DNA of 64,000 bases from Lignipirellula cremea (lineage in GTDB: Bacteria > Planctomycetota > Planctomycetia > Pirellulales > Pirellulaceae). Shown piece after piece: positions 7,511 to 16,712 of this stretch; the stretch's first letter is position 1; each line of letters starts with the position of its first letter. The notes below the pieces were generated by a model. It had not been told where the DNA came from, made no database searches, and was given only the letters and a program-made list of their open reading frames with translations. The translations under genes were made by a program, and so were the position numbers. Location: positions 7,793,001 through 7,857,000 of the forward strand of contig NZ_CP036433.1 of NCBI RefSeq assembly GCF_007751035.1. The letters run 5' to 3'.

Positions 7511-7731
7511 TCTGCCTGGCGCCAGCTATTACCCGCAAGCGATCTACGGCCCTGTCTCCGAGGGCCGGTAAAGTCAGGGCGCCCCCTTCTATCGTGCTGC
7601 GCAGCCCTGCGAAAATCGCACTTGCCGCCACTTCCCGGCGAGTTGCCGCTGCCGCCGCAGAAACTCTTCCATCCAATGGACAGATGCCTTTTCAATGCGA
7701 ATCGACATATGCAATCGCCGGCAAGGAACGA

Positions 7732-7819
7732 GGGGAAAATAACTTCGGTTTTTGTATAGTGAGCCGAACGCGCTAGCGTCGGGCGGTTCTACTCCTGTGA
7801 GCCGAAGTTATTCTTCCCC
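7732..7819. repeat. Inverted repeat enclosing a GCGCTAGCG palindrome
   Basis: The left arm (7732-7748, GGGGAAAATAACTTCGG) and right arm (7802-7819) are reverse complements except for one extra base. Between them lies a GAGCCGAACGCGCTAGCG-type sequence with its own palindrome CGCTAGCG. It could be a REP/MITE-like element or a long terminator hairpin. Origin unknown. Confidence 0.6.
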
Positions 7820-7891
7820 AGTTCCCAAACACGCCGAACCTCTTGCAGCAAAGGAGATTGCGCCCGTCCCTCGACCTCACCGGCCCCGGAA

Positions 7892-8041
7892 TATACAGAC
7901 GTCATGATAAATCCCCCGACCGCCATCTGTATAAAACAAACGGCCCCAGCAAACCACGGAAACAGCTTGACACCGCTCGATTTATACAGAAAATAACAGC
8001 ACCTGCAACCACCGGGTTATGCAGACGTCTGTATAATATAT
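7892..8041 (+). promoter_or_regulatory. Candidate array promoter and attI-like region with four TATACAGA motifs
   Basis: The octamer TATACAGA occurs at 7892-7899, inverted at 7926-7933, direct at 7983-7990 and inverted at 8028-8035. The first and last copies extend to TATACAGACGTC, and the last forms the palindrome CAGACGTCTG (8022-8031). A perfect TATAAT lies at 8032-8037, immediately before the first cassette boundary, and TTGACA is present at 7967-7972. This is the position of the attI site and Pc promoter in an integron. The repeats could be recombinase-binding or operator sites; that role is inference. Confidence 0.5.
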
Positions 8042-8064
8042 GTTCTGGCCGTGAAGGTCTTACC

Positions 8065-8643
8065 ATGACGCCTGTGCCGAGCAACCGTGCCCGCGAGATC
8101 GAAGCTTGGTTCCGCGACCACGAGAATGGCGAATTCGTTGTTGCGCCTTCCGTGCAGCCTTCAAAGCTCGTCGGCGATCGTTCTACGTCGCGAACCGTCA
8201 TTTACACTACCAAGCTTCCTTGCCTGCTCGCAAACCTTTCGGCCTTCGACGTTGAACATCGAGTCCTGATTGTGGCTCGAGCCGGACTTCCGATTCCAAC
8301 TGATCTGATCCACCTGAACGATTTGCCCGTTGGCGCAAACTGTTGGTTCGTCGGTGATGCTGATCCGCCGTGTATCTTGACATTCGCTTGGCTGAGGGAG
8401 CATGTTGCCATTGGCTGGTTGGGCGTGAACGACGAGCTGCTGAATAGGAATCCAACCTCCGATTGTGGCCGTCTGAGGATCCCAATGTCCGACGCAGAAA
8501 AACTGACAATGCCTGTGTTGGCCAACCTATGCCCAGATTTTCGCGACCTCCTGGGGCCACACTGTTGCCAAATGCTGGATGGTGGATTCAAGATCGAATT
8601 AGAGGGGGCTATGATGCATCTTCGCTCTGGCCCTGTAGCCTGA
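8065..8643 (+). CDS. Cassette 1: unknown protein
   Basis: The protein has 192 residues. The ATG at 8065 has a GAAGG site about 8 bases upstream and lies 17 bases inside the cassette boundary (GTTCTGG at 8042-8048). An open frame continues upstream through the promoter-like region, but those residues are not protein-like. The sequence is a soluble mixed alpha/beta protein with several Cys residues. No signal peptide, membrane segment or recognised family motif is seen. As the first cassette it should be the best expressed from the putative array promoter. The 3' end is followed within 10 bases by the attC R'' box. Confidence 0.7.
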   Translation: MTPVPSNRAREIEAWFRDHENGEFVVAPSVQPSKLVGDRSTSRTVIYTTKLPCLLANLSAFDVEHRVLIVARAGLPIPTDLIHLNDLPVGANCWFVGDADPPCILTFAWLREHVAIGWLGVNDELLNRNPTSDCGRLRIPMSDAEKLTMPVLANLCPDFRDLLGPHCCQMLDGGFKIELEGAMMHLRSGPVA

Positions 8644-8649
8644 AGCAGG

Positions 8650-8739
8650 CCAGAACCATCGATTGCAACCGAGCGGCGGATCGGGTAGTTCCTGATGGCA
8701 AGCCGTTTGGCCGCCGCCGGTTGAATCGTGTCGTTACGA
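8650..8739 (+). other. attC site 1
   Basis: R'' CCAGAAC (8650-8656), 9-base spacer, left arm CAACCGAGCGGCGG, central region, right arm CCGCCGCCGGTTG, 9-base spacer, R' GTTACGA (8733-8739). The arms are complementary with one bulge, and the inner spacer halves (CGATT/AATCG) also pair. Length 90 bases. Confidence 0.85.
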
Positions 8740-8757: not shown

Positions 8758-9333
8758 ATGACGGATGACCAACGCGTTGCTCGCCTCGTCGCTGAATTGG
8801 CGGGCACCGGCGCACAGGTCAACGGCGCGTTTCAGGTTTGGGCACTCGAGGCGCAGCTGACCGACGCCCACTTGCATGGAATCTCAAGCTGGGCCGACCT
8901 TGAATTCTTGATGGCCGCGGGTTGCCCGATCACCGATGCCGGACTGGCTTCGATTTGCTGCTTTCGTCGGCTAGTTTCACTCGACATAGGTGGCACGGCA
9001 ATCACTGCGAATGCGATCTCAACCGCCGAACTGCCGGAAACGCTTACAACCTTCGGTTTGTACGACATCCCGTTGACAGATGATGCTGCTAATCGAATTG
9101 CGCAGTTGCCCGAAATACGGATGCTTAATTGCAACGAATGCGGATTGTCACTGCCCGCATTTCACCGCTTGGTCGAGCTTCCAAAGCTGCGCGGATTCGA
9201 GGCGTTGGGCTGTCCTGTCCCAGATGATGATGCGCGAGCAATTTCTCGACGCATCCCACACGGTCTGCTACGATTGGACTCAGGCGTGTGGAGCAATGGA
9301 GACGTCAAACGTCCGCCCAGAAACAGGTCGTAA
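8758..9333 (+). CDS. Cassette 2: leucine-rich-repeat-like protein
   Basis: The protein has 191 residues and the ATG lies 19 bases after the attC R' box. The central part (about residues 38-150) shows LRR-type units such as ITDAGLASICCFRRLVSLDI, ITANAISTAELPETLTTFGL and ALPxLRGFEALGC-like segments. Planctomycete cytosolic LRR proteins share this T-DxGL pattern. It is probably a protein-interaction module. No signal peptide is seen. The stop codon TAA overlaps the R'' box TCGTAAC (9328-9334), a compact arrangement typical of cassettes. The intact attC that should follow is interrupted by repeat A and the IS91 element. Confidence 0.7.
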   Translation: MTDDQRVARLVAELAGTGAQVNGAFQVWALEAQLTDAHLHGISSWADLEFLMAAGCPITDAGLASICCFRRLVSLDIGGTAITANAISTAELPETLTTFGLYDIPLTDDAANRIAQLPEIRMLNCNECGLSLPAFHRLVELPKLRGFEALGCPVPDDDARAISRRIPHGLLRLDSGVWSNGDVKRPPRNRS

Positions 9334-9334
9334 C

Positions 9335-9447
9335 AATTAGGATTTGTCCTCGCGGGCCGGTGGGTAGATTTGCCGCTGCTAGTTGTTGTTGCGCGTGTGG
9401 GCGGGACTGAATTGCCGTTCGAGGAGCCGAGGTCAAGTCGTTTGTTC
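9335..9447 (+). repeat. 113-base repeat, copy A, directly after an attC R'' box
   Basis: Same length as 18824-18936 and 102 of 113 bases identical by eye. It begins immediately after the R'' box TCGTAAC and ends in TCGTTTGTTC. The IS91 element begins at the next base. No convincing complementary arm is visible inside it, so it is not an ordinary attC half. Its minus strand holds a short high-GC3 frame ending AREDKS that is interrupted in this copy. Confidence 0.8.
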
Positions 9448-9715
9448 GAGAAGCCCGGCGCGTTGCGTGGCCGGGCAGGGCCTTAGGGAAACGCTTCCGA
9501 GGCGGAGCTCGGTCGTAGTGGCTTGCTGCGGAATCGCCTTCGTTTGACGACGGCCAGCGGGACGTTTGAGGGAGAGGCGTTGCATTACGCTTGTCCGTTT
9601 CGCCAGGTATCGATCGTTTTCGACGTCCAAATCGAACGTCGGCGCGCAGTGGGGGCGCGGTCGCTGCCGCGACTTTTGAATCATCAACACGTGTCGTCGA
9701 TCGTGCATCAGCTCG

Positions 9716-10825
9716 CTAAGGCGGTTGAGAAGTGGGGATGGGCCTCGGCGGCGGAGGCGGCTCGAAACGGAGACGCAGCAAGGGCCCGCCGCACTCGCTG
9801 CAGGCGAAGTCGGGCGTCGGCGGCGCGACGATCGTTTCCGTCCAGGCCAGCCAGAACAGCAAGCCCAAGGCGGCCGCCACCAGCCACTTCAGTGATTCGA
9901 TCGATTGTCCCGCGCGAGGACTGAGGAACCCATAATGACGAACCTTTTGCAGCCCTCGCGGCAGGACGTGCTGCAGAAATCGCCGCACGAACTCATCTGC
10001 GTCCAGCCGCATTGTGCGCCAGCGCTGCGAACCGCTGCGGCGATAGCGGAACGTCACCGATTGTTCGTCGCAGGCCACGATCCGCTTGTCGGACAGGGCG
10101 ACGCGAAACACGTAAGGCGCCAGATACTTGACCGCCGCCGCGCCGTCGCCGACCGCCTGGCAGTCGACCACCCAGGACTCGCTCCAGACCGAGTCGTCGA
10201 CCTCGTCCAGCAAGCCCTCTGCGGCAAGCGCCGCACGCAGCTTCCCGCGGTACAGGAGTGACAGAGGTTGACACGGCAGAAAGAAGCTGGTCGGCGTCTG
10301 CCGCCATTGGCCTTCCGCGTCCAGCCCTCCGCCGGGAACGACATAATGCAGGTGCGGATGATAGTTCAAGTCGCGGCCCCAGGTGTGCAACGCTCCGAAG
10401 AAGCCCAGCGTCGTGACGCCTAACCGTTTTGGGTCGGCGGCCAGTGACTTGAGGGCGTCACTCGAAGCGCGGAACATGGCGGCGTACGCTTCGCGCGGAT
10501 GTCGCCGGGCGAACTCGCGGAACGCCTGGGGAACCGTGAACGTCAACAGGAAGTAATGGCACGGCAGCAGCCTGGCGAGCTGTCGTTCGCACCAGACGCC
10601 GCCTTTCTCGCTTTGACAGCTGGGGCAATGGCGGTTGCCGCACGAGCGACCCATCACATGCGCCTGCCCGCACTGGCGGCAGGCGTAATGCACGGTCCCC
10701 AACTCGCCGGTGCGGCAAGCCATGATGCAGCGCAGCACGCGTTTCTGTTCGACAGGCATCGTCGTCGCGTGGCGTTCCAGGTAGGCGGGACCGTGCCGAC
10801 GAAGAACATCGGCGACCGTCAGCAT
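9716..10825 (-). CDS. IS91-family HUH transposase
   Basis: The protein has 369 residues. The N-terminal zinc-binding domain has CRQCGQ and CGNRHCPSCQ (about residues 49-77). The HUH-type metal site is the HPHLH motif within LNYHPHLHYVVPGG (about residue 180). The paired tyrosines of Y2 rolling-circle transposases are in KYLAPYVFR (about residue 238). An extra CSECGG zinc knuckle and a proline-rich tail end the protein. It initiates single-strand nicking at the element origin for rolling-circle transposition. Translation probably couples to the upstream recombinase gene: 4 bases separate them, with a GGGAG site overlapping the recombinase end. The frame is intact, so the element may be active. 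Confidence 0.92.
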   Translation of the reverse strand: MLTVADVLRRHGPAYLERHATTMPVEQKRVLRCIMACRTGELGTVHYACRQCGQAHVMGRSCGNRHCPSCQSEKGGVWCERQLARLLPCHYFLLTFTVPQAFREFARRHPREAYAAMFRASSDALKSLAADPKRLGVTTLGFFGALHTWGRDLNYHPHLHYVVPGGGLDAEGQWRQTPTSFFLPCQPLSLLYRGKLRAALAAEGLLDEVDDSVWSESWVVDCQAVGDGAAAVKYLAPYVFRVALSDKRIVACDEQSVTFRYRRSGSQRWRTMRLDADEFVRRFLQHVLPRGLQKVRHYGFLSPRAGQSIESLKWLVAAALGLLFWLAWTETIVAPPTPDFACSECGGPLLRLRFEPPPPPRPIPTSQPP

Positions 10826-10829
10826 CGAC

Positions 10830-11720
10830 CTACGCTCCCGTATCCAAGGCGGCGCCGACGCCTTGCATCAGCTGGTCGATGATCTGGCGCGTGTGTTCGC
10901 CGCCGGGCTCGGTGACGTGCAAGTACCGCGCGGTGGTCTGCAACGAACTATGGCCCAGCAGCTGCTGCACGCGTCGCAGCCCGACGCCGGCTTCGATCAG
11001 GTGCGAGGCGTAGCTGTGCCGCAGCGTATGAATCGAGACCGACTTGGCCAGCCCTGACTGATCGACGACCCGCTTCCAGGCGCCCTGCACGCTGGCTTCG
11101 GCCATCGGCTTGTCGGCGACGCCGCCTTGGTTGCGGCCGCGTCCCAAAGCGGGAAACAACCAGCGCGGGTTACGATGTTCAAGCCAGTAACGGCGCAACA
11201 TCGCCAGCAGTTCTTGCGGCAGGAGAATAAAGCGATCCTTGGCGCCTTTGCCGCGATGCACATGCAGCATCATCCGCTGGCTGTCGAGATCGGCGACCTG
11301 CAGATGCAGCCCTTCGTTGAGCCGCAAGCCGCAAGCGTACACCGTCCACAAGTAGGCCCGGTTGTGGCGGGTCCGCACCGCGGCGAGCAACTGCCGCACC
11401 TCCGACCGCGACAGCACGTCGGGCAACGTCTTCTGCGGCGGGATGCGAATGTTGCACAGCGTGGCCCACGCGCGCGGCGCGGTGAAGTGATAAAAGAACT
11501 TCACGCCATTGACGGCGACACGCATCGAGCCGGGAGCAAACCCGCAGTCATTCTTGAGATACAGCAAATACTGCCGCACCTGCTCCTCGCTCAGCCGATC
11601 CGGCGGCGTGCGAAAGTGTTCTGCCAACTTCCGCACCGCCCGCAGATACGCCTCCTGGGTGCGTTCGCTCAAGCCCCGCAGCTGCAGGTCTTCCGTCATC
11701 CGCCGTCGCAATTCGCTCAT
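10830..11720 (-). CDS. Tyrosine recombinase of the IS91-type element
   Basis: The protein has 296 residues. The ATG at 11720 follows an AGGAGG box at ideal spacing, so the longer in-frame upstream extension is rejected. The N-terminal SAM-like core-binding domain (LSERTQEAYLRAVRKL) is followed by the catalytic domain. Catalytic residues are seen as Arg in ACGLRLNEGL, Lys near HRGKGAKDR, His-x-x-Arg in HTLRHSYASHL, His in LLGHSSLQ, and Tyr in TTARYLHV. The spacer between the second and third conserved patches lacks the extra helix that marks integron integrases, so this is not IntI. Recombinases of this kind accompany many IS91-type elements. A role in moving the surrounding cassettes is not supported by sequence. 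Confidence 0.9.
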   Translation of the reverse strand: MSELRRRMTEDLQLRGLSERTQEAYLRAVRKLAEHFRTPPDRLSEEQVRQYLLYLKNDCGFAPGSMRVAVNGVKFFYHFTAPRAWATLCNIRIPPQKTLPDVLSRSEVRQLLAAVRTRHNRAYLWTVYACGLRLNEGLHLQVADLDSQRMMLHVHRGKGAKDRFILLPQELLAMLRRYWLEHRNPRWLFPALGRGRNQGGVADKPMAEASVQGAWKRVVDQSGLAKSVSIHTLRHSYASHLIEAGVGLRRVQQLLGHSSLQTTARYLHVTEPGGEHTRQIIDQLMQGVGAALDTGA

Positions 11721-11881
11721 GATCAACCTCCTGGAAAAACGCAAAGAAAAACGTCCTTCCAAGGATGGCGTACAACCACAGCGAAGGGGTAAAATCAAAA
11801 CCTGCCGCGCAGCGGCTTCCTTGAACAAACCGTTGCACCGGAGTCGCGGGAAGCGCGACTCCTGAACTCAGCACCGAACGC

Positions 11882-13172: not shown

Positions 13173-13502
13173 GTGAAGATTGGCTGCCGTTGCGGTGCGA
13201 CAATATCCGACTCGACCGACTACATTTCCCACAAAGCGCACCTCACGCCTGACCAGGATATCTACGGTGTGATGGATGGAATTGACGACGAGGTCATCGA
13301 CCGAGTGGCGTCGGGTGTACTGCCCGTGAAAGATGCATACATGGTATCGAGAAGAATCATGTCATCGCCAACACGGACAATGTGGCAATGCTTCGAGTGC
13401 GGGCGTCTCTACATAGACGGACCGGACGGTGATCTCCACTGCTTCGTTCCTGAAAACGACGAAACCGAAAAACGGATACTTCGAGCACGAAACAGCAAAT
13501 AA
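13173..13502 (+). CDS. Cassette 5: small zinc-ribbon-like protein
   Basis: The protein has 109 residues. A GTG start at 13173 is chosen because GGAG (13164-13167) lies at correct spacing; an in-frame TTG at 13158 overlaps the attC. Cysteine pairs at the N-terminus (CRC, residues 5-7) and in MWQCFECGRLY (about residue 70) suggest metal binding. The C-terminal block IDGPDGDLHCFVPE follows. The function is unknown; similar short WxCxxCGRLY proteins are familiar as integron cassette products. The stop codon TAA (13500-13502) is formed across the intron 1 boundary, so intron insertion has not lengthened the protein. Confidence 0.7.
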   Translation: MKIGCRCGATISDSTDYISHKAHLTPDQDIYGVMDGIDDEVIDRVASGVLPVKDAYMVSRRIMSSPTRTMWQCFECGRLYIDGPDGDLHCFVPENDETEKRILRARNSK

Positions 13503-14304
13503 TCGGGTAGCCGGACGGGTTTCCCCGCCCGGCCCCCACACCACCGTACGTGCGGGTCCGCATACGGCGGTTCAACGAAGGAGTTCAGTCCGGGCCGCGA
13601 GTAGCGTCCGAAAGACAGGTTCGGTGCTGGCGGCAGCGACCACTGCTTCCCTTTGCAACTCACGGATCAGACTCAAGGCTGGCTGCTCGACCAGCGCCCG
13701 TGCGGTACGTCCCGGTCGGGACAATGAACCTGCGGTCTCTTCAGGCGAAGAGTGGTTCCCTCGCACCGAGCTCGTCGATGGCTCCTCCTTCTTCATTGTT
13801 CGGTCCTTCCCGTCTCGATTGGTGTTCGAGGATCGGTACCTCGACCTCTGCTGACTCCTGCCTCGCCCGCTGGGGATTGCTCCGCGGCGGTCCAGCCTTT
13901 CAGGCAAGCCTTACTTGCTGGGGCGAACGACGGCTCGCAAGCCGCCTGGCAGGTCTCCCCGGATAAGAACGTGATCTTTCGCTGCACAAGCTCGCCCTTT
14001 ACCTGAACGACCGTCTGGGAACGGCTTCGTGATGTTGTGCTCACTCGCCTGGTCGAACCGGCCTTATAGGACGTTTCTGTTCGTAACCTCGCAGCTTGGG
14101 TGGGAATGCGACCGACGGCGAAATCAGGCCGGTACTTACGCACGCATTCGCAGGCTTCCTCCCCACGGTCGGTCGCCCTTCCGCAGTTGCCTTCACCTCG
14201 TACTTTGTCAATCGGAGCAATCATTTGGTATACTGACCTCCTTAGACTCCCAGTCTCGTACACGGGACTTTCACCCGATAAAATCACGCCCATGCCGGGC
14301 GTAC
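13502..14304 (-). mobile_element. ORF-less group II intron 1 (class C, attC type), 803 bases
   Basis: Read on the minus strand it starts GTACGCCCGGCATGGGCGTG, followed by GGGTGAAAGTCCCGTG, which is characteristic of class C group II intron 5' ends. It ends with a domain-V-like hairpin (CCGTATGCGG...CGCACGTACGG, about 13547-13575), a GC stem, and ..CCCGAT. Insertion is antisense to the cassettes and splits R'' at TTGT/T on the bottom strand, the known class C-attC target. No reverse transcriptase is encoded. A 74-residue frame (13572-13796, minus, starting MKKEEP) is conserved in copy 2. The domain V loop is GACC, not a GNRA tetraloop, so catalytic competence is uncertain. Confidence 0.85.
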
Positions 14305-15909: not shown

Positions 15910-16712
15910 ATCGGGTAGCCGGACGGGTTTCCCCGTCCGGCCCCCACACCACCGTACGTGCGGGTCCGCATACGGCGGTTCAACGAAGGAATTCAGTCCG
16001 GGCCGCGTGTAGCGTTTGAGAGACAGGTTCGCTGCTGGCGGCAGCGACCACTGCTTCCATTAGCAACTCACGGATCAGACTCAAGGCTGGCTGCTCGACC
16101 AGCGCCCGTGCGGTACGTCCCGGTCGGGACAATGAACCTGCGGTCTCTTCAGGCGAAGAGTGGTTCCCTCGCACCGAGCTGGTCGATGGCTCCTCCTTCT
16201 TCACTGTTTGGTCCTTCCCGTCTCGATTGGCGTTCGAGGATCGGTACTACGACCTCTGCTGACTCCTGCCTCGCCCGCGGGGGATTGCTCCGCGGCGGTC
16301 CAGCCTTTCAGGCAAGCCTTACTCGCTGGGGCGAACGACGGCTCGCAAGCCGCCTGGCAGGTCTCCCCGGATAAGAACGTGATCTTTCGCTGCACAAGCT
16401 CGCCCTTTACCTGAACGACCGTCTGGGAACGGCTTCGTGATGTTGTGCTCACTCGCCTGGTCGAACCGGCCTTATAGGACGTTTCTGTTCGTAACCTCGC
16501 AGCTTTGGTGAGAATGCGACCGACGGCGAAATCAGGCCGGTACTTACGCACGCATTCGCAGGCTTCCTCCCCACGGTCGGTCGCCCTTCCGCAGTTGCCT
16601 TCACCTCGTACTTTGTCAATCGGAGCAATCATTTGGTATACTGACCTCCTTCGACTCCCAGTCTCGTACACGGGACTTTCACCCGATAAAATCACGCCCA
16701 TGCCGGGCGTAC
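15910..16712 (-). mobile_element. ORF-less group II intron 2 (class C, attC type), 803 bases
   Basis: Exactly the same length as intron 1 and nearly identical throughout, with scattered substitutions. The minus-strand start GTACGCC and end ..CCCGAT are the same, inserted between GCATA and AC of R'' in attC 8. Two copies with the same missing coding region imply either that the deleted form moves in trans, using a reverse transcriptase encoded elsewhere, or that a cassette carrying it was duplicated. The flanking cassettes are unrelated, which favours movement. The 74-residue frame (15980-16204, minus) is kept open with several amino-acid changes. Confidence 0.85.

Follow-up and report, generated by a model that had tools for sequence, protein, structure and literature searches.

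Sequence comparison indicates that positions 7892-8048 of the window most probably represent the attI site of a chromosomal integron together with its promoter region; the integron's own intI has decayed, and the copies of TATACAGA/TTATRCAGA are putative IntI-binding sites. The window, i.e. the whole stretch of DNA analysed here, covers 64 kb and corresponds to bases 7793001-7857000 of a single-contig 9.57-Mb genome. The evidence consists of sequence identity, fixed spacing, recurrence of the motif, a resemblance to the repeats of attI1 and the tracking of IntI clades by the motif. We regard this planctomycete attI as a new variant: its five related putative IntI sites face both ways and lie next to a dead intI, and an identical site belongs to a live intI. 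An earlier description of it was not found in the literature searched, in which subscription papers were mostly not covered. Parts of a 2016 paper (PMC4792948) describe knowledge of how attI sites are recognised as lacking, and according to passages of a 2026 paper (PMC12901181) attI2 still awaits the definition of its binding sites.

Five copies of a motif precede the first cassette

The word TATACAGA occurs four times in the window, at 7892-7899 (+), 7926-7933 (-), 7983-7990 (+) and 8028-8035 (-). These are exactly the places, in both orientations, that an earlier note on this DNA had reported, and there are no others in the 64 kb. Dinucleotide shuffles contained a mean of 0.12 occurrences, and 0 of 100 got to four. 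The palindrome claimed in the same note is present as well (CAGACGTCTG, 8022-8031), and TATAAT, at 8032-8037, does end five bases short of the cassette boundary, since the first cassette begins at T8043. Overlooked at that time was a fifth copy at 8017-8025, TTATGCAGA, which deviates at one base and together with the last copy makes up a near-perfect 20-bp palindrome, TTATGCAGA-CG-TCTGTATAA. When the L-box 9-mer of the site was used as the query, four further copies were found versus 0.21 expected (0 of 200 shuffles matched this), and an unanchored survey likewise returned five copies at the window site (0 of 40 shuffles). All features are listed in Table 1.

Table 1. Features around the attI site, in window coordinates
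Feature	Position	Strand	Remarks
intI, second piece	7623..7724	-	95.1% identity over 102 nt to intact intI in L015; homology stops here
101-bp inverted-repeat element inserted in intI	7725..7825	.	24-nt arms
intI, 5' piece	7826..7903	-	start codon 7901-7903; 76/78 nt identical to intact intI
Motif copy 1, ATATACAGA	7891..7899	+	overlaps first codons of intI
Motif copy 2, TTATACAGA	7926..7934	-	within intI leader
Candidate Pc, TTGACA-16-GAAAAT	7967..7994	+	10/12 consensus matches; towards cassettes
Motif copy 3, TTATACAGA	7982..7990	+	in Pc spacer and first bases of Pc -10
Motif copy 4, TTATGCAGA	8017..8025	+	DR-like
Motif copy 5	8028..8036	-	holds putative attI L box TGTATAA (8030-8036) and most of TATAAT
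R box with crossover G8042^T8043	8042..8048	+	conservation of three modules stops here; cassette-end complementarity
First gene cassette	8043..8733	+	ORF 8065-8643 and attC from about 8648

The boundary between this region and the cassettes is real on independent grounds, because the reverse complement of GTTCTGGCC at 8042-8050 is found, without any mismatch, as GGCCAGAAC at 8648-8656, the start of the first cassette's own attC. The site lies between an integron integrase gene, of which a remnant is left in the window, and the first cassette. Its crossover is of the G^TT type, conservation ends there, and cassettes lie beyond. The window R box, GTTCTGG, deviates from GTTRRRY at position 4, and the R box there arrived with the cassette. 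The ORF of the first cassette had no match in Pfam.

The same module precedes an intact intI elsewhere in the genome

A whole-genome search for exact words located TATACAGACGT six times in the 9.57 Mb, always at integron modules: two inverted copies each at the window, at 2868852-2868995 and at 7050011-7050154. The earlier note had suggested a search near integrase genes and had named as a possible refutation that the motif is common genome-wide without relation to promoters, which does not hold for TATACAGACGT. The more degenerate TTATRCAGA occurs 40 times in the genome, with 12 occurrences within the three integron modules and the remaining 28 scattered.

The module at 2868852-2868995, 4.9 Mb from the window, immediately precedes an integron integrase gene that is intact (2868982-2870049 of the genome) and whose 356-aa product scored 411 bits against TIGR02249 (cut-off 265). 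The module at 7050011-7050154 precedes a second broken intI. Alignment of the three modules showed that conservation begins exactly at the crossover AAC/GTT. Over 222 nt, window positions 7826-8047 share 99.1% identity with the intact locus (L015), and the 139 nt between 8042 and the start codon of intI show no difference from it. The same 139-bp module thus stands upstream of an intact intI and of a second broken one. The earlier proposal that an attI/Pc region of an integron precedes the first cassette is supported. As the three modules are near-identical duplicates, they do not count as independent.

The intI of the window had escaped the earlier note. It is on the minus strand and consists of a 5' piece, the 101-bp element and a second piece (Table 1), with no match beyond. 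Since the gene is both split by the element and shortened, the window array represents an attI without a working intI of its own, and an intact intI beside attI, as in a complete integron platform, is absent from the window. The intI remnant differs from L015 at 7 of 180 nt versus 0 of 139 in attI (Fisher p=0.02). The same contrast with L016 gave 2/139 differences in attI versus 5/180 in intI, so that the signal for selection on attI against intI decay is weak, and this explanation was not retained. At least 27 near-full copies of the 101-bp inverted-repeat element were found in the genome (40 of 125 candidates were scored), many of them 99-100% identical; going by these near-identical copies, it is a recently active small mobile element.

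Promoters

The TATAAT hexamer had been suggested as the cassette promoter. In a promoter scan the hexamer was left without a -35 partner, and it coincides with the L box, so this assignment was dropped. A better candidate for Pc is TTGACA-16-GAAAAT at 7967-7994. In silico, it has the -35 and -10 elements of a sigma-70-type promoter within the 16-18 bp spacing and points towards the cassettes; a promoter of this quality was present in 2 of 100 shuffles. In the set of upstream regions described below, 14/24 rows have a TTGAC[ATG] word that points towards the cassettes and lies 65-95 nt from the crossover. The sole minus-strand match of the scan, at 7933-7904, was not accepted as Pint because its -10 falls on the intI start codon.

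Comparison with known attI sites

Like the window site, attI1 of class 1 integrons is situated between intI and the first cassette. Its L box is CCCTAAA according to parts of PMC12901181 and, when counted from the crossover AAC in the attI1 sequence, occupies positions identical to those of TTATACA in the window. The spacing between AAC and the L box was also constant in the relatives, and the L box accordingly stands at a fixed distance from the crossover both in the attI1 register and among these loci. Passages of two papers describe two direct repeats in attI1, upstream of L and R, as binding sites of IntI1 (PMC3518468; PMC12901181). A repeat finder returned one direct-repeat pair from attI1, and the only two matches to GTTATGCAGA within 2/10 mismatches (offsets -51 and -32) were both at direct repeats; two such matches were seen in 5 of 2000 shuffled attI1 sequences. 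From their position, we infer that the repeats of this pair, GTTATGGAGC and GTTACGCAGC, are DR1/DR2. There are, however, clear differences: attI1 consists of an L box and two repeats, whereas the window site has five related copies, and the attI1 repeats are direct, whereas the window copies are found in both orientations. Furthermore, unlike in attI1, one window copy overlaps the intI start, and the TTGACA of Pc lies between the sites.

In V. cholerae attIA, as described in parts of PMC3948777, Pc is placed between intI and attI as in the window, and transcription of the cassettes begins 65 bp from the attI crossover; the -35 of the window Pc is about 70-75 bp from the crossover. In contrast to the window site, attIA is without such repeats according to PMC8946536, and V. 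cholerae relies on LexA and CRP control, neither of which was found at the window site.

The motif recurs in relatives and varies with the IntI clade

An IntI relative was detected at 1e-60 in 102 of 199 family genomes, and 24 upstream regions were examined, one being the window's own and two the same locus. For 12 of the remaining 23, no more than one of 300 shuffles fits AACATATATTATACAGA as well as the real sequence does; the fit is poorer in the other 11. The L-box 9-mer recurred above shuffles (p<=0.05) in 9/23 rows (L024, L025, L027, L028, L032, L035, L037, L038 and L138) and did not do so at this level in 14/23. For this recurrence test, L043 was left out as it had no credible anchor, and the anchor of L037 was moved one base by eye. 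Some loci carry two labels (L034/L140, L027/L054, L028/L055).

In a blind AAC-anchored survey of 100 loci, the window site was one of four that were not reached by any of 200 shuffles. The lowest shuffle counts at a plausible crossover belonged to L024, L038, L028/L055 and L035, all of them Pirellulaceae. Extension to a general rule for all integrons was rejected, as loci from other phyla were near the chance level of 100 tests, the best being L114 with 5/200.

The motif itself differs between groups: TTAkRCAGA is common to L028/L032/L035/L038, TTATnCAAG to L036 and L138, and an ATATRTTGA-type repeat to L029/L030/L031/L034. These groups, with motif labels assigned by hand, agree with the IntI tree, and genome G153 even combines three IntI with three different motifs. 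Since attI and intI adjoin, part of this co-divergence is expected from joint descent.

A search of the 199 genomes with the DNA pattern only, allowing 2 mismatches, yielded 8 matches in 3 genomes, while the reversed pattern yielded 4. Six of the 8 adjoin an IntI or a remnant; one match in G008 is about 0.8 kb from a remnant, and the own-genome match at 1864676 has no IntI nearby. On contig C739 of G008, which represents another genus, two attI-like modules (L163 and L166) are located 1.1 kb apart, at 9165 and 10259, and only one of them is beside an IntI remnant. Perhaps this pair reflects an attI carried inside a cassette array.

Among 19 loci checked, a motif copy overlaps an in-frame ATG in L024, L028, L031, L037 and L118, and a GTG in L035; in L028 and L118 the overlapping word is TTATGCAGA. 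We treat the start codon inside the motif as a lead only, because there are other candidate starts without overlap.

Alternative readings of the repeats

The earlier note had left the choice between an attI/Pc region and a LexA-like regulated promoter, and only the former stands. That the motif is a LexA operator, placing intI and the cassettes under SOS control, is in our judgement highly improbable, even though LexA boxes in Pint are frequent in published integrons according to parts of PMC3108266, the genome does contain lexA, and the motif, like LexA operators at Pint, is short, palindromic and close to intI. The confinement of TATACAGACGT to integron modules argues against it, and the exact-word search did not show the motif to be common to lexA or other SOS genes. 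The stretch upstream of the own lexA, another place where the note had proposed to look, lacks TATACAGA and instead carries a different palindrome, ACCCGTATATTAACGGGT, that is unique in the genome; parts of PMC3108266 also state that the E. coli motif is not the one used by LexA of planctomycetes. In addition, lexA was found in 6 of 15 genomes and not found at E<=1e-20, a threshold that a more distant LexA could escape, in the other 9. Iterated motifs are nevertheless kept in five of the lexA-negative genomes (G124, G146, G050, G182 and G153; 93-99% completeness), and the presence of three motifs for three IntI in G153 also speaks against this reading. The attI motifs suggest how integrons may be controlled in genomes in which no LexA turned up.

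The repeats could also be targets of a local transcription factor, distinct from both IntI and LexA, that controls Pc and Pint, in line with the position of copy 3 in the Pc spacer and of copies 1-2 at the intI start, and parts of PMC3948777 describe a CRP box that Pc and Pint of Vibrio have in common. We consider this quite unlikely, since the crossover-proximal motif is kept at a constant distance and resembles the integrase-bound repeats of attI1, and since the motif varies with the IntI clade, even inside one genome. It is also rather unlikely that the integrase sites are limited to copies 4 and 5 and the rest is chance or promoter sequence. The variable spacing of copies 1-3 among lineages and the 14 rows without recurrence would favour such a split, but the four copies beyond the L box exceed the expectation by far, and the sole base that differs in copy 3 of L016 yields TTATGCAGA and stays within the motif. 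The best reading from the comparisons remains that of integrase-binding repeats, as the earlier note had proposed, to which IntI would bind.

A proposed arrangement of integrase sites

If the copies are IntI sites, copy 5 would be the L box beside the crossover, faced by copy 4, and copies 1-3 would act as accessory sites, similar to DR1/DR2 of attI1 but inverted, and extending as far as the start codon of intI. IntI bound to these overlying sites could conceivably repress Pc and intI because copy 3 is in the spacer and -10 of Pc and copies 1-2 are at the intI start. Likewise, because the intact locus has the same module without any difference, its IntI could still insert cassettes at the window attI in trans. 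Put together, and only tentatively, a lineage-specific IntI-site array may extend over Pc and the intI start, such that bound IntI silences its own gene along with the first cassettes, replacing the regulatory role that LexA has in Vibrio, while one intact IntI serves several arrays with an intI-less attI. The findings suggest that an attI can outlast its own intI. Moreover, with a readable repeated motif that differs by IntI clade, the attI sites of Pirellulaceae offer a natural series for asking which IntI residues read which bases.

Other elements in the cassette array

The window also contains an IS91-type element (9331-11846) in which a Y2 transposase with a zinc-binding domain accompanies a tyrosine recombinase. 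At the left junction of the element, AAC is followed by AATTAG in the copies read, and 9/13 copies with a readable right end continue, as judged by eye, into attC-like sequence. The element thus appears to prefer attC sites at their R'' end. Furthermore, Rfam identified two degenerate group II introns on the minus strand, at 13502-14182 and 15910-16590, which lie in the cassette array by attC-like sequence.
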